DNA from: Pseudomonas sp. GR 6-02
Lineage (GTDB): Bacteria; Pseudomonadota; Gammaproteobacteria; Pseudomonadales; Pseudomonadaceae
Length of the DNA stretch: 64,000 nt
Assembly: GCF_001655615.1 (NCBI RefSeq)
Contig: NZ_CP011567.1
Location: 434,001-498,000, forward strand
Reading direction: 5' to 3'
Shown: piece after piece, positions 51,326 through 58,815 of the stretch
Layout of the letters: every line of letters begins with the position of its first letter
How positions within the stretch are numbered: the stretch's first letter is position 1
Translations under genes and position numbers: made by a program
The notes under the pieces: generated by a model
Told to the model about the DNA's origin: nothing
The model's input: the letters and a program-made list of their open reading frames with translations, nothing else
Databases searched by the model: none

Positions 51326-52052
51326 TGTTTTGTCGCCTCGCGCCTGGCTGGAGCGCCAGCCACTGCAACCGTCGGAGCAACTGTTCGCGATTTTCAGCAG
51401 CGCCAGTGCCGCCGAACCGTTCAAAACCTGGCAACGCTCGATCACTGCACAAGCGCCGAGCCCGATCTGGGCCGGCACTGCCTACGCCGAGTGGGAAGCG
51501 GTGATGCCCTATGTCGGAATCGTCACCGCTGACAGTGAGTTTCTGGACTGGGTAGCCGCCACTGAGTCCCGCGATTGGGGTTGGCTGGCGGTGTCTTGCG
51601 CCACTCAAGAGGCGTTGGTCGAGCATTTGCGCAGCCTCACACACGTTCTGATGCCCAACGGCAACGCGGTGTTTTTCCGCTATTGGGATGGACGCTATTT
51701 GCTGCCGATTCTGCAGTCTGCCGAGGTTAACGCTGCGCAACTGATGCCGGTGATCGGGCGTTGCCTGATCAATGGTCAGCCACTGGATATCGGTGGTAGT
51801 GCGCTGAAAACCGCCAGGGATTTCCCCTGGTGGGAAGTATCTGAATCGCTGCTCAACCACCTCGCCACCGAGTCCGCGACAACGCATATCAACAACCTGC
51901 TGAAGTGGTTGAGCGAGGACCGCCCTGATCTTTATGAGGCGTTCTCCGAAAGCGTGTTGCGGCACAAAGTCGTGAGCTTTCTTGAGATGCCAGACCTGCC
52001 TCAAGCGCCGAAATCAGCGTTGGTGGATTACCTGATGACGGAGCTGGACTGA
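51315..52052 (+). CDS. DUF4123 adaptor/chaperone for loading the Rhs effector onto VgrG
   Basis: Protein of 245 residues in the DUF4123 family (Tap/Tec-type adaptors). Typical stretches are FAIFSSASAAEPFKTWQ, GWLAVSCATQEALVEHLRSL and VFFRYWDGRYLLPIL. Such adaptors bind an effector N-terminus and the VgrG tip and are encoded between the two, as here. I chose GTG 51315, which has AAGGG eight bases upstream and overlaps the vgrG stop by eleven bases; GTG 51309 is an alternative. Its stop overlaps the rhs start by one base (TGATG). Confidence 0.85.
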   Translation: MLPDVLSPRAWLERQPLQPSEQLFAIFSSASAAEPFKTWQRSITAQAPSPIWAGTAYAEWEAVMPYVGIVTADSEFLDWVAATESRDWGWLAVSCATQEALVEHLRSLTHVLMPNGNAVFFRYWDGRYLLPILQSAEVNAAQLMPVIGRCLINGQPLDIGGSALKTARDFPWWEVSESLLNHLATESATTHINNLLKWLSEDRPDLYEAFSESVLRHKVVSFLEMPDLPQAPKSALVDYLMTELD

Positions 52053-55000
52053 TGGATCAGATCGTACGGATCGAGCAGGAGCTCGACGGTTTCAAAGACA
52101 CACTGGTTTTGTATCGCCAACAGCTTGGCAACTTCTTGAGCCGGAATGCGGACAAGGTCAGCCGGGCGATGGACATGCCTTCGCTGTTGGACATGGAGCG
52201 GGTGATAAAACTCGGCAATACCACGACTGCGGTGAGCAGTGGCGACGATGATTTTATCTCGGGTCTTGCGCAGTGTCCGGCTAGTGGAATTCTGCAGATC
52301 GAGAGCAAGTTCGAATCGGTCTACGACATTCCGTTGGGGAGCATTCAGGTCGATGTGATTGCCAATGATGGCGGCGAAAGTACACCTGTAACACTCGATG
52401 AAAACGGTCAGGGGCAGTTCAAAGGCACGCCCGGCAAGTTCTACCGCGTTCATGTCCACAGTGAAGTTACCCCGACTCAAATCGATGACCTTTTCTCCTC
52501 CTACGACGGCCTGACCCAGGAGCTGGAAAGCTGGCTGCGCAAGGAATGGGAAGGGTTCAAGCCACAGTGGTCGCAGCAATCGGCATCCGCTTCGTTGGCG
52601 GCGGTGGGCAACGGAGTGCTCGCGGGAGGTTGGGCGGCGATTCAGGCGGTTTGGGATGGCATGGGTGAACTCGCCGACATCCTGAAAGACCCCAACGCCT
52701 ATGCCGAGAAGCTGGGTGAAAGCGCCGGCAGACTTGCCGATCTGGCCGTAACCGCTCCAGACAAGATGGAAAAGGCCATGTTGCTGGCCAGCGACGAGGC
52801 GGCGCTGTGCTTGCTGATGCGCACTGCGACCTTGTGGCTGGAAGCATTGCCACCTTCGCAACTGGCCGGGTCTTCGGCTGAAGCGATTTCCAAGGTCGTG
52901 GTTGGGTTGGTCATCGACCTGTTGATTGGTTTGGTACTGAGTGTGGTCGGGGTTGGCATTGCCTGGCTGACCGTGCGCCTGGCCAAGTACAGCGCACAGA
53001 TTTTTCAGGCCGCCATGGGCTTCGTGAAGTCGATGGTTGCGATCATCAACAACTTCATGGAGTACGTTGATCGCTACAAAAAGGTCGCCGCGCGCGGTGT
53101 TGCGGCGGGCCTGAAAAAAGGCCGGATGCAACTGCGCTGGGATGCCAAACGCAACACCACGCTCAAGCAAAACGAACACCACGACGACTCCCCGGATCAG
53201 GCGAAAAACCCCAACGGCGACAGCGCCGACTCAGTCGACAAAACCGCGACCAACCAATGCCCGGTGTCGATGGTCACCGGCGAAGAACTGCTGACCCTCA
53301 CCGACGGTGCGCTGGACGGCATCCTGCCGTTCGACTTCACCCGACTCTATCGCACCAGCGCCGCCGAGATCGACTGCGGCCTCGGCTTTGGCTGGAGCCA
53401 TTCGCTCGCCCATCGGCTGGAAATCGACGGCGACCAGGTCATCTGGATCGACCACGAAAACCGCCGCACCACGTTTCCATTGCCGAGCAGCGAACGCCCG
53501 GCGATCCACAACAGCCTGTCGCGCGCGGCAATTTACCTGGGCAATGACCCCGAAGAACTGATCCTCGCCCAGGCCGGTGGCGACACGCGGTTCTACCACT
53601 TTCACAATGGTCGGCTGACGGCGATCAGCGACGCCTACGACAACCGCTTGCGCATCACCCGCGATCGTCAGGAGCGCATCCAGCGCGTCGACAACGGCGC
53701 CGGTCGTGCCTTGCTGTTGCGCTACGACCGTGCCCACCTGATCGCTGTCGACTACCAAAGTTTTCGCCAGGCCCAGATCCTCGCCGAGGCCTGGCACACC
53801 GAACAAACCTTGGTCAGTTACCACTACGACGAACGCGATCAACTGATCGAAGCGAGCAACGCCGCCGGCGAAAGCGAGCGTTACGACTACGACGATCAAC
53901 ATGTGATCCTGCAGCGGCAACTGGCCGGCGGCGCGAGTTTCTTCTGGGAGTGGGAACGGTCCGGCAAGACGGCGCGCTGCGTACGGCATTGGGCGTCGTT
54001 TGCGCAGATGGACACGCGCTATGTCTGGGATGACCAGGGCCGCGTCACCGTCCGGAACATCGATGGCAGCGAAGAGGTTTACGTCCACGACGACCGGGCG
54101 CGGCTGGTGCGCCGGGTTGGGCTGGATGGCGGCGAACAGCTCAAGGCCTACGACGAGCAGGGCCGAATGGTGGCCGAGCAGGATCCGTTGGGGGCCGTCA
54201 CCGAATACCGTTATGACGACGTCGGACGGTTGGTGGCGCTGATTCCACCGCAAGACGAACCGACGTCCTACGAGTATCGCAACGGTTTCCTGCATGCGCG
54301 CTATCGCGGTAAGGCGGTGTGGAAATACCGGCGCAATGCTCAGGGCGATGTCACCGAGGCGACCGATCCGGACGGTCAGGTCACCCATTACCACTACGAC
54401 GACTACGGTCAGTTGCTGTCGATCCGTTACCCGGACACCAGCCGGCATGTGTTTGTCTGGAATGCCTTGGGCCAGTTGCTTGAGGAAACACTGCCGGACG
54501 GTGGGCAGCGAACGTTTTCCTACGATGCGCTGGGACGGCAGACGACTCGTCAGGACGAACACGGTGCGCTCACTCAGTACCAATGGGACGCCGTTGGCCG
54601 ACTGACCCAGACGACGTTGCCGACCGGTGCCACTCGCGCCTTCAGCTACAACGCCTACGGCAAGATCACCGCCGAACGCGACGAACTGGGCCGCGTCACC
54701 CGCTACGAATACGTCGACGATCTGCACCTGGTCAGCCGCCGGATCAATGCCGACGGCACCCAGCTCAAGTATCGCTACGACAACGCGCAGCTGTTGCTCA
54801 CGGAAATCGAGAATGAATCCGGCGAAACATATCGGCTGGACTACACGCCCGGCGGATTGATCCGACAGGAAACCGGATTCGATGGACGGCGAACGGCGTA
54901 CGTTTACGACCTCAACGGCCATTTGCTGGAGAAAACCGAATTCGGCGATGACGGCTCGCAGCTGATCACCGGGTACGAGCGGGATGCGGAAGGGCGGCTG

Positions 55001-56857
55001 TTAGTCAAAACCTTGCCCGACGGCATCCAGGTCGAATACCGCTACGACAGCCTCGGCCGATTGGTCAGCGTCGACGACGGCCACGACCATCCGCTGGAAT
55101 TCGAATACGACCAGCAGGACCGGCTGATCACCGAGCATCAGGGCTGGGGCACGCTGCGTTATGGCTACGACGCCTGCGGCCAACTTAACCGCCTGCGCCT
55201 GCCGGATGGCAGCAAGCTCGACTACCACCACGCCAAGGGTGGCGCGCTGACGGACATCGACCTCAACGGCGCACGGCTTACAGATCACACGTACAAGTCG
55301 GGTCGAGAAGTACAGCGCCAGCAAGGCCTGCTGCTCAGCGAATATGCCTACGACGACCAGGGCCGGCTAAAGGCCCACGCCGTCAGCCAACAGCAAAAAA
55401 GCCTGTACCGCCGCGACTATGCCTACAGCCTCAACGGCAATCTCGACCACATCGCCGACACCCGCCACGGCCAGCGCAGTTACCAGTACGACCCGCTGAA
55501 CCGGCTGACCCGCGTCCGCCACACCCGCGACGACCCACCGGAAAGCTTCGCCCACGACCCCGCCGGCAACCTGCTGATGCAGGACCGCCCCGGCCCGACG
55601 ACCGTCAAAGGCAATCGCCTGCTGATGCAAGGCGACCGTCATTACGACTACGACGCCTTCGGCAACCTGATCCGCGAACGCCGTGGCACCGGGCAGAAAC
55701 TGGTCACCGAATACCGCTACGACTGCCAGCATCGGCTGGTCGGCGTCACGTTGCCGGATGGAAGTTGCGCGAGCTATCGCTACGATGCCTTCGGTCGCCG
55801 CATCGCCAAAACCGTCGACGGCCAAACTACCGAGTTCTTCTGGCAGGGCGACCAAGTCGTCGCTGAAAGCAGCAAAGAGCACTACCGCAGCTACGTCTAC
55901 GAGCCGGGCAACTTCCGCCCGTTGGCCATGCTCGACGGCAAAGGCCCGAAAAAGGCCTGCCCGTTCTACTACCAGCTCGATCACCTGGGCACACCGCAGG
56001 AACTGACGGATTTTGGCGGCGAGATTGTCTGGTCGGCGAAGTACAACGCCTACGGCAAAGTCACTCACCAGACGTTCGGCGGGGGCGAGCAACTTGAACA
56101 ACCGTTACGGTTTCAGGGCCAATACTTCGACGCCGAGAGCGGTCTGCACTACAACCGGCATCGATACTATGATCCAGAGGTTGGTCGGTATCTGACACCG
56201 GATCCGATCAAGTTGGCGGGTGGGCTGAACCAGTACCAGTACACGCCGAATCCGACGGGGTGGGTTGATCCGTTGGGGTTGAGCGGGAATTGTCCGCCGC
56301 CGAATAAGCCTGGGTGTGGGGCGCCGGATGATACGACTGGCGCTAGGGTGGATGAGGGTGAACCGCAACTTCCGAAGCTGACGGGTGAGCAGCGGCGGGC
56401 GCGGATTGATGAGCTGGCTGAGGCGAATGCGAAGCGGCGTGTTGAAGAAATGGAAGCAAAATATGATATGCACACAGTCAAAAAACACAGCTCAGAAATA
56501 TCTGACCAAGCGCTCAATCAACGAGCAGTTAATGGGGCCGATCCTCATACCGGTGAGGTTCCGAAAGGCGCCAGAGGGAACTTGAGCTCTCAATTCAGAA
56601 ACTGGCGTATGCATTTGGGGGCATTGAATAAAGCTATGACAAGGGAAGCGTTAGGTTTGAGCCCGCATACAGGGAAGGACCAGAATAAAAATCCGATCGT
56701 AAGGATGGAACTTCCTGGGGCCGGGCGTGGTTATAAACCGAACAAGAAAGATGCTCGTAACCCAACACTAAATGAAGATCTGAATTGGTTTGAAGTTAAA
56801 TTCGATAAAGATAATGTGCTGCGGCCTTTTACTGCTTTTCCTTCGGAGAGAAAATAA
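52052..56857 (+). CDS. Rhs/YD-repeat type VI effector with an unidentified C-terminal toxin
   Basis: Polymorphic toxin of 1,601 residues. Residues 1-280 are an adaptor-binding-type N-terminus without a PAAR domain; about 281-309 is one strongly hydrophobic segment (VVVGLVIDLLIGLVLSVVGV). From about residue 400 come the Rhs shell and many YD repeats (such as YRYDSLGRLVSVDD), ending in GWVDPLGL, with the core boundary motif DPLGL at 1406-1410 where Rhs shells normally cut themselves. Residues 1411-1601 are the toxin, of which the last 130 or so, from about 56450, are much more AT-rich. I do not recognise the toxin; the ending WFEVKFDKDNVLRPFTAFP has a nuclease-like look, which is only an impression. 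Confidence 0.9.
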   Translation: MDQIVRIEQELDGFKDTLVLYRQQLGNFLSRNADKVSRAMDMPSLLDMERVIKLGNTTTAVSSGDDDFISGLAQCPASGILQIESKFESVYDIPLGSIQVDVIANDGGESTPVTLDENGQGQFKGTPGKFYRVHVHSEVTPTQIDDLFSSYDGLTQELESWLRKEWEGFKPQWSQQSASASLAAVGNGVLAGGWAAIQAVWDGMGELADILKDPNAYAEKLGESAGRLADLAVTAPDKMEKAMLLASDEAALCLLMRTATLWLEALPPSQLAGSSAEAISKVVVGLVIDLLIGLVLSVVGVGIAWLTVRLAKYSAQIFQAAMGFVKSMVAIINNFMEYVDRYKKVAARGVAAGLKKGRMQLRWDAKRNTTLKQNEHHDDSPDQAKNPNGDSADSVDKTATNQCPVSMVTGEELLTLTDGALDGILPFDFTRLYRTSAAEIDCGLGFGWSHSLAHRLEIDGDQVIWIDHENRRTTFPLPSSERPAIHNSLSRAAIYLGNDPEELILAQAGGDTRFYHFHNGRLTAISDAYDNRLRITRDRQERIQRVDNGAGRALLLRYDRAHLIAVDYQSFRQAQILAEAWHTEQTLVSYHYDERDQLIEASNAAGESERYDYDDQHVILQRQLAGGASFFWEWERSGKTARCVRHWASFAQMDTRYVWDDQGRVTVRNIDGSEEVYVHDDRARLVRRVGLDGGEQLKAYDEQGRMVAEQDPLGAVTEYRYDDVGRLVALIPPQDEPTSYEYRNGFLHARYRGKAVWKYRRNAQGDVTEATDPDGQVTHYHYDDYGQLLSIRYPDTSRHVFVWNALGQLLEETLPDGGQRTFSYDALGRQTTRQDEHGALTQYQWDAVGRLTQTTLPTGATRAFSYNAYGKITAERDELGRVTRYEYVDDLHLVSRRINADGTQLKYRYDNAQLLLTEIENESGETYRLDYTPGGLIRQETGFDGRRTAYVYDLNGHLLEKTEFGDDGSQLITGYERDAEGRLLVKTLPDGIQVEYRYDSLGRLVSVDDGHDHPLEFEYDQQDRLITEHQGWGTLRYGYDACGQLNRLRLPDGSKLDYHHAKGGALTDIDLNGARLTDHTYKSGREVQRQQGLLLSEYAYDDQGRLKAHAVSQQQKSLYRRDYAYSLNGNLDHIADTRHGQRSYQYDPLNRLTRVRHTRDDPPESFAHDPAGNLLMQDRPGPTTVKGNRLLMQGDRHYDYDAFGNLIRERRGTGQKLVTEYRYDCQHRLVGVTLPDGSCASYRYDAFGRRIAKTVDGQTTEFFWQGDQVVAESSKEHYRSYVYEPGNFRPLAMLDGKGPKKACPFYYQLDHLGTPQELTDFGGEIVWSAKYNAYGKVTHQTFGGGEQLEQPLRFQGQYFDAESGLHYNRHRYYDPEVGRYLTPDPIKLAGGLNQYQYTPNPTGWVDPLGLSGNCPPPNKPGCGAPDDTTGARVDEGEPQLPKLTGEQRRARIDELAEANAKRRVEEMEAKYDMHTVKKHSSEISDQALNQRAVNGADPHTGEVPKGARGNLSSQFRNWRMHLGALNKAMTREALGLSPHTGKDQNKNPIVRMELPGAGRGYKPNKKDARNPTLNEDLNWFEVKFDKDNVLRPFTAFPSERK

Positions 56858-57273
56858 TGTTGCGAGATCCATTTTTAAATGAAGAATTTCAACCAGATTT
56901 GATGTGGTTTATTGGCGTCTTTGATGTTTATGATCGCGAGGAAACTCGGGGTGCGGAACTGGAAGTGTTTAATCCTAATGATCGCTTTGATAGAGCTGAG
57001 CTGATCAAAAGATACAGCTTGAATCTAGGTTATCTGTCCTATCGACATAAGTTCGTGCTGCTGGATTTTCTAGCGGAAAAGCTAAGCGATGCGTCTTATG
57101 ATTTTCGGAGTTTGTTTGATATAGATGAAGAAGATGCAGGCAGTTGGCCGCGTGGTGAGTGGTATGCATTGGAAGATCCCCGTGGATTTTTTCAAGATGT
57201 CTATTTTTTGGCTCAGGAGACCTGGAAGGAAGATCTTCTTTTAGCGAGTCTTGAAGATCGGGCCAGTTGGTGA
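56857..57273 (+). CDS. Candidate immunity protein for the Rhs toxin
   Basis: Acidic protein of 138 residues whose start overlaps the rhs stop by one base (TAATG), the usual place for a cognate immunity gene. It is AT-rich like the toxin tip. It contains VFDVYDREETRGAELEVFNP, FVLLDFLAEKLSDASYDFRS and ETWKEDLLLASLED, all shared with the next gene. No known family is recognised. The immunity role rests on position, size, acidity and matching base composition. Confidence 0.75.
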   Translation: MLRDPFLNEEFQPDLMWFIGVFDVYDREETRGAELEVFNPNDRFDRAELIKRYSLNLGYLSYRHKFVLLDFLAEKLSDASYDFRSLFDIDEEDAGSWPRGEWYALEDPRGFFQDVYFLAQETWKEDLLLASLEDRASW

Positions 57274-57381
57274 TGGAAAAGGTGGTGCCTGTCAGTCTGG
57301 AGTCCTAGGTGTCGGCATTCTCAAGAGTAATAAATAAATCCGTCCCCTTTATGGTCTATACCAGATCAAGTGAGGGAGATT

Positions 57382-57804
57382 ATGTTTATTGATCCTGATA
57401 CTCAGCAGCCATATATACCGACACCTTCATATTTTTTGGGGTGTTTTGATGTTTATGATCGTGAAGAGACTCTTGGTGAGGAGTTAGAGAGGTTCGAACC
57501 TAATGATCCGACGGACAGGGAGGAGCTAATTCTCAAATACTGCCTCCCTAGAAAGCGATCATATAGGCAGAGATTTTTACTTTACAAATGTCTGGAGGAA
57601 GCTCTTCAGGACAAAAATTATGATTTCCAATCACTGCTGAAGTATGACCCTGAGGCGTATTCATCATTTCCTGATGGGTGGGATGAGATGAAAGATACCA
57701 GGGCATTTTTTGAAGACATTTTTCGCTTGGCAACTGTTGAGTGGAAAGACGACCTTCAAAAAGCCAGTCTCGAAGATCAATCCACTTGGACGGCTGTTGG
57801 TTAA
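57382..57804 (+). CDS. Second, paralogous immunity-like protein
   Basis: Acidic protein of 140 residues clearly related to the preceding one: FDVYDREETLGEELERFEPN, YRQRFLLYKCLEEALQDKNYDFQSL and VEWKDDLQKASLEDQS align without gaps in their cores. The rest has diverged, so it is an old duplication or a spare immunity gene from another toxin. ATG 57382 has GAGG six bases away; GTG 57370 is the alternative. It is separated from the first copy by 108 bases with no toxin fragment that I can recognise. Confidence 0.75.
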   Translation: MFIDPDTQQPYIPTPSYFLGCFDVYDREETLGEELERFEPNDPTDREELILKYCLPRKRSYRQRFLLYKCLEEALQDKNYDFQSLLKYDPEAYSSFPDGWDEMKDTRAFFEDIFRLATVEWKDDLQKASLEDQSTWTAVG

Positions 57805-58031
57805 TTGCATGGACGTCGTACATCCTGCGAAATTTCTGGGCAAGGTCGTCGGAAGTTTCCTTCAAGTCCTAGCGGTTTCCATGAACTGGTGTGAAATGAG
57901 CTCCATCGATAGTCTCTGGTGGTCACTGAAAATTCAGTGGCAGGGTGTAGGAACCCTTCGAAACCGTTAGAGCTATATTGGCGTCGATGCTTGGTTTGCG
58001 GCCGTTAACGTGCGTCCGTATGATCAGTTGC
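57805..58031. other. Gene-free stretch between the immunity genes and the RNA leader
   Basis: About 227 bases with no convincing gene. It holds a perfect hairpin, CACTGAA-AA-TTCAGTG, at 57924-57939 and a TATATT at 57974-57979 that could be a -10 box for the structured leader, without a clear -35. A minus-strand frame across 57548-57865 mostly mirrors the immunity gene and is not kept. Confidence 0.4.
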
Positions 58032-58161
58032 GGCGGCTATGCGCGGGCACGCTTCGGCGTGGTCGAGTTTTGCTCTAAGGGTCTCGATATTCCTACCCCG
58101 TGCATAGCTGCCACCCTAGCCTGTAGGAAGGCCTAAGGCAGCTCCATTTCTTCCTTGGAGC
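58032..58161 (+). ncRNA. Candidate structured leader RNA upstream of the DUF6124 gene
   Basis: GGCGGCTATGCGCGGG (58032-58047) can pair with CCCGTGCATAGCTGCC (58097-58112) along all 16 positions as RNA, two of them G-U. Inside lie a hairpin CACGC-TTCG-GCGTG (58048-58061, with the stable UUCG loop) and a stem TCGAG/CTCGA (58063-58067 with 58083-58087), which together make a three-way junction. Downstream, GCTCC (58141-58145) can pair with GGAGC (58157-58161), covering the ribosome site of the gene at 58169, while GGAAG (58126-58130) can pair with CTTCC (58150-58154) in a competing fold. This suggests a cis-acting regulatory RNA. No Rfam family is claimed. Confidence 0.55.
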
Positions 58162-58168
58162 AATTCAA

Positions 58169-58492
58169 ATGAAAACATTTACACCCGATCCACCCTACGA
58201 AAAACCAATTCCCCACCCCAAAAGCCGCTTCATGGCCCTAACCGGCAACTGCACCGACATGCCCACGCTATTCGTCGATACCCACGCGCCGCTGGATATT
58301 TTGACCGACACTGCCAGCTACCGAATTCGCGCCGTCACTCAGGTGCTGGAAAACATGTCCATGCGCGGTTCGGTCGAGTGTGAATCTTTCATTCTTAGTG
58401 ATTTTGCCTTGCTCTGTGCCATTTCATTGCGTGATGGGTGTGATGTGCTGGATGTGGTGGGGCGGCGGTTGCGGGCGCGGCCTTCGGAATAA
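58169..58492 (+). CDS. Small DUF6124-type protein
   Basis: Protein of 107 residues of the DUF6124/DUF3077-like kind common in Pseudomonas: MKTFTPDPP start, a central FVDTHAPLDILTDTASYRIR and a helical middle. Function is unknown. GGAG lies eight bases before the ATG but can be hidden in a hairpin. The residues beyond about 85 (DVLDVVGRRLRARPSE) are more basic than the rest. The gene stands alone, flanked upstream by the structured leader and downstream by REP repeats. Confidence 0.75.
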   Translation: MKTFTPDPPYEKPIPHPKSRFMALTGNCTDMPTLFVDTHAPLDILTDTASYRIRAVTQVLENMSMRGSVECESFILSDFALLCAISLRDGCDVLDVVGRRLRARPSE

Positions 58493-58506
58493 CGTCGAGT
58501 GGCTTT

Positions 58507-58709
58507 TGTGGCGAGGGAGCTTGCTCCCGTTGGGCTGCGTAGCAGCCCCAAAACCTGCAATCCCGTTTTGTCAGCTGTACCGAGTGGTTTGGTTTGGCGA
58601 CTGCTTCGCAGTCGAGCGGGAGCAAGCTCCCTCGCCACAGGTTATGGGTGGTCTGGATATTTTGGGGCTGCTTTGCAGCCCAACGGGGGGCAAGCCCCCT
58701 CGCCACAGG
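58507..58709. repeat. REP-type pair plus a third single copy before rlmJ
   Basis: TGTGGCGAGGGAGCTTGCTCCCG (from 58507) pairs with its reverse complement ending at 58639. A third unit, with GGGGCTGC-TTT-GCAGCCC and then a CAAGCCCCCTCGCCACAGG end, lies at 58664-58709. Same family as 36523-36656. Confidence 0.85.
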
Positions 58710-58815
58710 GTTTATGGATTGGCGCGGTATTGGGGTTGTACTTGCCCGCTCAGCCACCAACCCCTGACGTCCTGCGCCGTACAGGGTAAACTTCCCGGCC
58801 TTCGCAGGAGCAGCC

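Follow-up and report, generated by a model that had tools for sequence, protein, structure and literature searches.

The leader RNA ahead of a gene for a 107-amino-acid protein in Pseudomonas sp. GR 6-02 belongs to the known C4 antisense RNA family (Rfam RF01695). It lies in the window, the whole 64,000-nucleotide stretch of DNA analyzed here, and is one of at least 31 C4 copies in the same genome. The loop of the third hairpin of these RNAs and the ribosome site of the following gene coevolve locus by locus, likewise a second unpaired segment (a') and its target (a2), and on average a C4 is a much closer match to its own gene than to others. The sequences make it highly probable that a C4-type antisense RNA, encoded on the same strand as its target and probably carried in the same transcript, blocks translation of its own downstream gene. 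As far as we have seen, the set of genes that would be controlled and the evidence of own-gene addressing are new; the RNA family itself is known.

These results give a widespread and little-studied antisense RNA family an address code between loop and ribosome site that has been tested statistically, and likely targets of its chromosomal copies can now be named. A phage-type RNA is linked, as a likely silencer of translation, to DUF6124, DUF3077, and the window gene family, which makes the function of these families testable. The cell may keep such genes switched off, and the C4 set may serve as ready-made orthogonal translational switches.

Fold and family of the leader RNA

An Rfam scan of the entire 64-kb window returned a single match above a curated cutoff, RF01695 at 58026 to 58118, with 57.1 bits against a curated gathering cutoff of 45 (full length, model positions 1 to 87; window-wide E = 2.2e-8). 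When all 31 copies in the genome, the window copy among them, were used to build a model, the window copy scored 67.9 bits. Read directly, the P1 stem pairs GGCGGCUAUGCGCGGG (58032-58047) with CCCGUGCAUAGCUGCC (58097-58112) over 16 bp, with two G-U pairs and no mismatches, and it encloses both P2 (CACGC-UUCG-GCGUG), which is stacked on P1, and P3, which has a 6-bp stem (58062-58067/58083-58088). The fold predicted for 58020 to 58175 contains this three-way junction (−67.9 kcal/mol, z = −4.6, 0 of 200 shuffles as good) together with the hairpin at the ribosome site (Table 1).

Much of this had been anticipated by a sequence-only reading of the same DNA, which described a 16-bp stem containing G-U pairs, a stacked UUCG hairpin, and a further stem, all of them present where it placed them and folding together, and which saw that the ribosome site could be locked in a hairpin, as in the computed fold. 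Its suggestion that the loop of that hairpin can pair elsewhere holds in a different sense, in that the Shine-Dalgarno (SD) stretch is complementary to the P3 loop over 12 bp (b'-b2; −21.8 kcal/mol stacking at the window locus). Its statement that no named RNA family fits was overturned by the Rfam match.

Covariation was scored in three alignments fitted to the C4 model, which biases them toward the structure. Among the 31 paralogues, aligned to a model built from them with stems set by hand after the Rfam consensus, 96.9% of cells pair and 15 of 27 pairs changed on both sides; the corresponding values were 95.1% and 11 of 27 for 24 distinct rows of window-gene homologues and 95.3% and 15 of 27 for 57 distinct rows of such homologues. 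All five P2 pairs changed on both sides in each alignment, as did 8, 3, and 6 of the 17 P1 pairs, respectively, so that the compensatory changes in the long stem, named beforehand by the sequence-only reading as the test of its proposal, were found. None of 500 shuffles reached the observed value for P1, P2, and P3 by any of five measures in any of the three alignments, and controls with slid partners dropped to 24 to 47% paired. Assignment to RF01695 draws on the score, the three-way junction with its covariation, the a'-a2 and b'-b2 complementarities, and the presence of a1 and b1 upstream, each of which was found at the window.

Upstream of C4, the leader possibly starts from about 57920, a few bases after a candidate −10 box. 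The tA..T columns of this box lie about 8 to 12 bases before the first hairpin and are weakly conserved among the 26 of 31 paralogues that were placed by an anchor pattern (5 of 31 were not anchored). A consensus promoter scan of the locus found no promoter, and a terminator scan gave one terminator-like site, situated inside C4.

Table 1. Features of the C4 locus in window coordinates
Feature	Position	Strand	Basis or remark
Possible −10 box, GATAGT	57908..57913	+	weak column conservation (tA..T)
5' hairpin CACTGA/TCAGTG, upstream of a1	57924..57939	+	same pattern at same place in 26 of 31 paralogues
a1 hairpin, GGG-TGTAGGAA-CCC	57943..57956	+	contains a1
a1, GTAGGAA, complementary to a'	57947-57953	+	7 bp, position −79, rank 2 of 31
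b1, TTAGAGC, complementary to part of P3 loop	57967..57973	+	7 bp, position −59
C4 antisense RNA (RF01695)	58026..58118	+	Rfam match, 93-nt fold
P1 stem	58032..58112	+	16 bp, fold and covariation
P2 hairpin	58048..58061	+	fold and covariation
P3 hairpin	58062..58088	+	fold and covariation
b', UUGCUCUAAGGG in P3 loop, pairs with b2	58070..58081	+	own target rank 1 of 31
a', UUCCUAC in P3-P1 linker, pairs with a2 and a1	58090..58096	+	own target rank 1 of 31
a2, GUAGGAA, target of a'	58123..58129	+	a'-a2, 7 bp
Element c, GGCAGCU, complementary to P1 3' arm AGCUGCC (58106-58112)	58137..58143	+	
SD-sequestering hairpin GCUCCA/UGGAGC	58141..58161	+	58141-58146 with 58156-58161, computed fold
b2, UCCUUGGAGCAA with SD core GGAG (58157-58160), target of b'	58152..58163	+	
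Downstream gene, 107-aa protein	58169..58492	+	GGAG in b2 is its ribosome site

C4 copies and their match to neighboring genes

All 31 copies in the genome of the window scored above the cutoff, and their number is a lower bound because 150 of 1,864 first-look candidates were scored. C4 was found in at least 36 of 57 genomes (that of the window included), which include at least 32 of the 36 same-genus genomes surveyed; at least 23 of these 36 same-genus genomes carry at least 10 copies, and the highest count listed was 42. Across the order, with 17 or fewer candidates scored per genome, C4 occurs in at least 36 of 244 genomes and at least 19 of 112 genera, and of the 32 genomes outside the genus with C4 in this survey, 31 show at least 1 to 6 copies and one shows at least 14.

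The copies precede small genes of several kinds, which agrees with the mention in the sequence-only reading of similar leaders before other small Pseudomonas genes. Downstream of the 31 copies are 20 DUF6124 genes, one DUF3077 gene (L008), one Bro-N antirepressor gene (L004), four genes of the window type (L009, L015, L028, and L029), three other small genes (L010 and L026, with no Pfam match above the cutoff, and L031, which is like L026), and two truncated frames (38 and 51 aa); nine of these proteins besides that of the window were scanned against Pfam one by one, and the rest were classed by DUF6124 positions or by likeness. A C4 precedes 20 of the 24 DUF6124 genes of the genome, and the remaining four, along with one relative of the window family that was examined, had no C4 even at E 10. 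In other genomes, Bro-N genes followed C4 in five of ten proteins scanned, one of them barely above the cutoff. Those loci lie in other Pseudomonas genomes and in other genera, indicating that the phage arrangement and the chromosomal arrangement coexist.

Own-gene specificity was expressed as the best gap-free helix, with G-U pairs allowed, between the P3 loop and the ribosome-site window, comparing each locus's own target with all other targets. Gap-free scoring was adopted after poor separation had been seen with an earlier scoring that allowed bulges and included P3 stem bases (own target first in 9 of 31). Applied to phage P1, it finds a2 and b2 where they are annotated, and it was reused for the later sets with slightly different loop and ribosome-site windows. 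Start codons were set by hand at 4 of the 31 loci (L002, L024, L026, and L030).

By this measure, b' fitted its own SD region better than swapped ones in every set, with 0 of 10,000 permutations each time: −14.65 versus −8.37 kcal/mol in the 31 paralogues, −16.22 versus −8.98 in 26 window-gene homologues, −16.90 versus −10.29 in 40 other loci (39 of the genus), −15.55 versus −9.11 in 73 loci of named Pseudomonas genomes (32 distinct loops), and −15.69 versus −9.71 in 26 loci outside the genus. Runs restricted to Watson-Crick pairs agree (6.58 for own versus 3.97 for swapped in the 31 paralogues). For a' against the spacer, the values in the 31 paralogues were −13.19 versus −8.36 (0 of 10,000), and a'-a2 was own-specific at the level of sets (0 of 10,000) in the 31 paralogues, the 40 loci, and the 26 loci outside the genus. 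Among window-gene homologues a' contributes little (−12.73 versus −11.96, n = 26; −12.46 versus −11.91, n = 73) because it hardly varies there. Wrong pairings in the 31 paralogues gave no signal (b' with the spacer, 4,853 of 10,000; a' with the SD, 7,742 of 10,000), nor did b' with a downstream control (8,335 of 10,000 in the 40 loci and 8,829 of 10,000 in the 26 loci outside the genus).

The upstream a1 and b1 complementarities were also own-specific in all five sets (0 of 10,000, with the exception of a' in the 26 homologues, 25 of 10,000). At these upstream sites the difference between own and swapped targets was smaller than at the downstream targets and modest for the window locus alone, where b1 had a weak rank of 5 of 31 (set-wide test, 0 of 10,000). 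With a' and b' combined, the own gene came first in 25 of 31 paralogues, and the window RNA scored −34.0 on its own gene against −22.2 on the best foreign one; b' alone put its own target first in just 16 of 31. The best b2 helix misses the listed SD-like cores in 9 of 31 paralogues, and the b' helix is 6 bp or shorter in 7 of the 73 named-genome loci.

As for the makeup of the sets, the 26 homologues derive from 29 loci, minus two duplicates (L038 and L056) and one locus without a start by the rule applied (L048), with the window (L032) kept, and the named-genome set derives from 82 matches, of which 78 lie upstream of the gene and 73 are distinct. The 40 loci were hand-picked from the best 150 matches listed, and the non-genus locus among them (L095) is the same place as L200, so this place is shared with the outside-genus set. 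The 30-locus and 79-locus sets of gene relatives partly overlap.

Two further elements lie close to the ribosome site. The SD hairpin was weakly own-specific, at 103 of 10,000 (31 paralogues) and 118 of 10,000 permutations, and was own-specific in the set outside the genus (0 of 10,000). Element c, between a2 and b2, is a near copy of the P1 5' arm and can pair with the P1 3' arm. It was own-specific (0 of 10,000 each) in the 31 paralogues, with a narrow margin (−13.96 versus −13.91 for the best permutation), in the 40 loci, and in 24 loci outside the genus (the 26-locus b' set without the near-duplicates L199 and L204), where the result weighs less because 3 of 10,000 was reached with a downstream control stretch as well. 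For phage P1, element c gives a best match of just 5 bp. Forcing the element c pairing at the window opens the outer part of P1 alone, at a cost of about 15 kcal/mol (−53.1 versus −67.9), and compared with the matching piece of the 5' arm, element c is stronger in 18 of 31 paralogues, equal in 8, and weaker in 5. Given this cost and the 18 of 31, an equilibrium switch is doubtful; element c could act on the RNase P site or on the SD hairpin.

Proposed mechanism and alternatives

Transcription, processing, repression, action in cis or in trans, and the competitor role of a1 and b1 at the window are inferred. The leader would carry a1 and b1 and then the 93-nt C4 fold, all transcribed together with the target. 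C4 would probably be cut out by RNase P as in phage P1, judging from P1 itself and from read coverage in Acinetobacter. C4 would pair with the downstream mRNA through its two unpaired segments, a' with a2 and b' (in the P3 loop) with b2, and because the latter pairing would cover the SD site, translation of the 107-aa protein would be shut off. The upstream a1 and b1 may compete, holding unprocessed C4 inactive.

Whether an RNA has to be released at all bears on this scheme. If C4 stayed in the mRNA and acted only in cis, with its P3 loop forming a pseudoknot with its own ribosome site, the proximity of C4 and start codon would be accounted for (45 to 62 nt on one strand in the 31 paralogues, 45 to 59 nt in the 73 named-genome loci), and the own gene would be the best fit, as in 25 of 31, since the neighbor alone would matter. 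However, RNase P is reported to process the C4 of P1 (PMC5320573), which is listed as trans-acting (PMC12197685), and C4-like RNAs of Acinetobacter have processed read coverage (PMC5320573); we consider action in cis alone possible but unlikely. Chromosomal C4s might also be aimed mainly in trans at incoming or resident phages, with the neighboring gene secondary. C4 sets immunity in P1 and P7 (PMC5320573), and several C4s precede Bro-N antirepressor genes, but the adjacent gene is a strong, locus-specific partner and a tblastn search of 50,697 phage records (E 0.1) found nothing that matches the window gene, which makes a primarily phage-directed role improbable.

The logic of a riboswitch or protein-sensing leader, favored by the sequence-only reading, would suit the three-way junction, the UUCG-capped P2, and the local hairpin able to hide the SD. 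What stands of it is a structured leader bearing directly on the ribosome site; no sign of a ligand-binding core was seen. The RNA matches a known antisense family, at least 31 copies precede different small genes, and the P3 loops differ between loci (32 distinct ones among 73) in step with their targets, with no conserved pocket seen. A riboswitch was rejected as very improbable because the loops vary together with their targets, with no conserved core among the unpaired P3 loop positions, and because the RNA belongs to a named antisense family. Very improbable, too, is a decaying prophage relic lacking present function, which would fit the two copies before truncated frames (38 and 51 aa) and the gene relatives without C4 (L064 to L068, L054, and L132). 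It is contradicted by the compensatory changes in the stems and between loop and target, and the gene is under purifying selection (median dN/dS against the window gene of 0.145, for 77 of 79 loci).

Translational silencing of the adjacent gene by C4 can also be set in a broader picture, about which our judgment is evenly balanced. Pseudomonas species of one group may have adopted a phage immunity switch and multiplied it into a chromosome-wide collection of mostly individually addressed antisense switches, each directed at the ribosome site of the small-protein gene that it accompanies (DUF6124, DUF3077, the window family, or Bro-N). Element c would add a third conserved complementarity; by pairing with the outer portion of the 3' arm of P1, it might control either access to the SD or processing by RNase P.

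The window locus shares with the C4 of phages P1 and P7 its three-stem fold, with a' in the P3-P1 linker and b' in the P3 loop, and with that of P1 the order a1, b1, C4, a2, and b2 near the start codon, similar spacing, and about 50 nt from the end of C4 to the start codon. The P1 record annotates a1 and b1 upstream of C4, a2 directly behind it, and b2 ahead of icd. Unlike in P1 and P7, the target at the window is a chromosomal 107-aa gene and not icd or ant, and unlike the P1 record, which has one match, the genome holds at least 31. The immI layout of P1 and P7, in which C4 is followed by icd and the antirepressor gene ant, was not found at the window, where the gene has no Pfam match.

Large chromosomal sets in one genome are also known from Acinetobacter baumannii, whose Group 1 C4-like sRNAs (21 sequences; PMC5320573) resemble those described here and show apparent RNase P-type processing and variable target loops. 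Their targets are not named in the parts of that paper used, whereas here the downstream gene's own ribosome site matches. The c4 and c4-a1b1 motifs of Weinberg et al. 2010 (PMC2864571) represent the same RNA class, with c4 listed in Proteobacteria and phages and c4-a1b1 in gamma-Proteobacteria and phages; the portion of its main text used contains no mention of DUF6124, DUF3077, the window family, or loop-SD coevolution. The sar RNA of phage P22 is likewise a small RNA that blocks antirepressor translation (PMC12197685), but it is a different RNA that pairs with ant mRNA. The same 2025 review, in the sections used, describes C4 for P1 and P7 alone. A literature search for DUF6124 found no paper, and for DUF3077 one, on furfural tolerance (PMC9630843). 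C4 was not found tied to DUF6124, DUF3077, or the window family in the parts used of PMC2864571, PMC5320573, PMC8198154, PMC9630843, and PMC12197685, a partial coverage of the literature that does not prove such a tie unpublished.

The 107-aa gene and its surroundings

The 107-aa protein had no Pfam, NCBIfam, or PHROG match. The label of DUF6124 gene, given to it in the sequence-only reading, was rejected, as DUF6124 (PF19619) failed to match the protein even at E 10; a profile comparison of the window family with DUF6124 was weak, at 8.6% probability (the DUF6124 alignment contained one entry truncated to its first 60 residues). The predicted structure (mean pLDDT of 58) was too poor to search, and for this reason no function is proposed from the fold. 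Of 199 genomes in the genus, 101 contain relatives at E ≤ 0.001, frequently more than two to a genome or in some number. A C4 immediately precedes the ATG at 78 of 79 named-genome loci and lies upstream at 29 of 30 loci from the gene search in the genus, window included.

Genes of the window type with C4 often lie downstream of Rhs genes (52052-57804 in the window; L015 and L009 in the same genome). Three of the four C4-preceded window-type copies in the genome have an Rhs core within about 5 kb upstream on the same strand, and the fourth (L028) has none within the 12 kb examined. In partly overlapping sets viewed over about 1.5 kb on either side, 51 of 109 loci show an Rhs fragment or relatives of two small genes of the window (56857-57273 and 57370-57804), and among seven further loci without a nearby Rhs, one (L228) has Rhs farther upstream. 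These two small genes are related (about 49% identical), stand in tandem after the Rhs gene, and have no Pfam match; they are possibly Rhs immunity genes. At G000:C1:4031858-4034329, a DUF6124 gene without C4 lies about 2 kb after another Rhs core.

Elsewhere, C4 is followed by a family of 52- to 68-aa proteins with a motif like AHRAMAxAALxANSS..RLxRYN, in several genomes and genera (L071, L072, L075, L077, L080, L088, L093, L101, L195, L197, L205, L208, and L211); two examples scanned had no Pfam match. In many DUF6124 copies, an extended conserved segment (about GCCTACGACTGCGCCAGAATCCGCCGGCTTGTGCGC) precedes the presumed promoter, upstream of C4 (L003, L005 to L007, L011 to L013, L016, and L020 to L023). 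This segment, possibly an operator, was not seen in window-type copies. Between the 107-aa gene and rlmJ, positions 58500 to 58720 contain repeats of the kind GGCGAGGGAGCTTGCTCCC and GGGCTGCGTAGCAGCCC, which we take to resemble REP-type elements.
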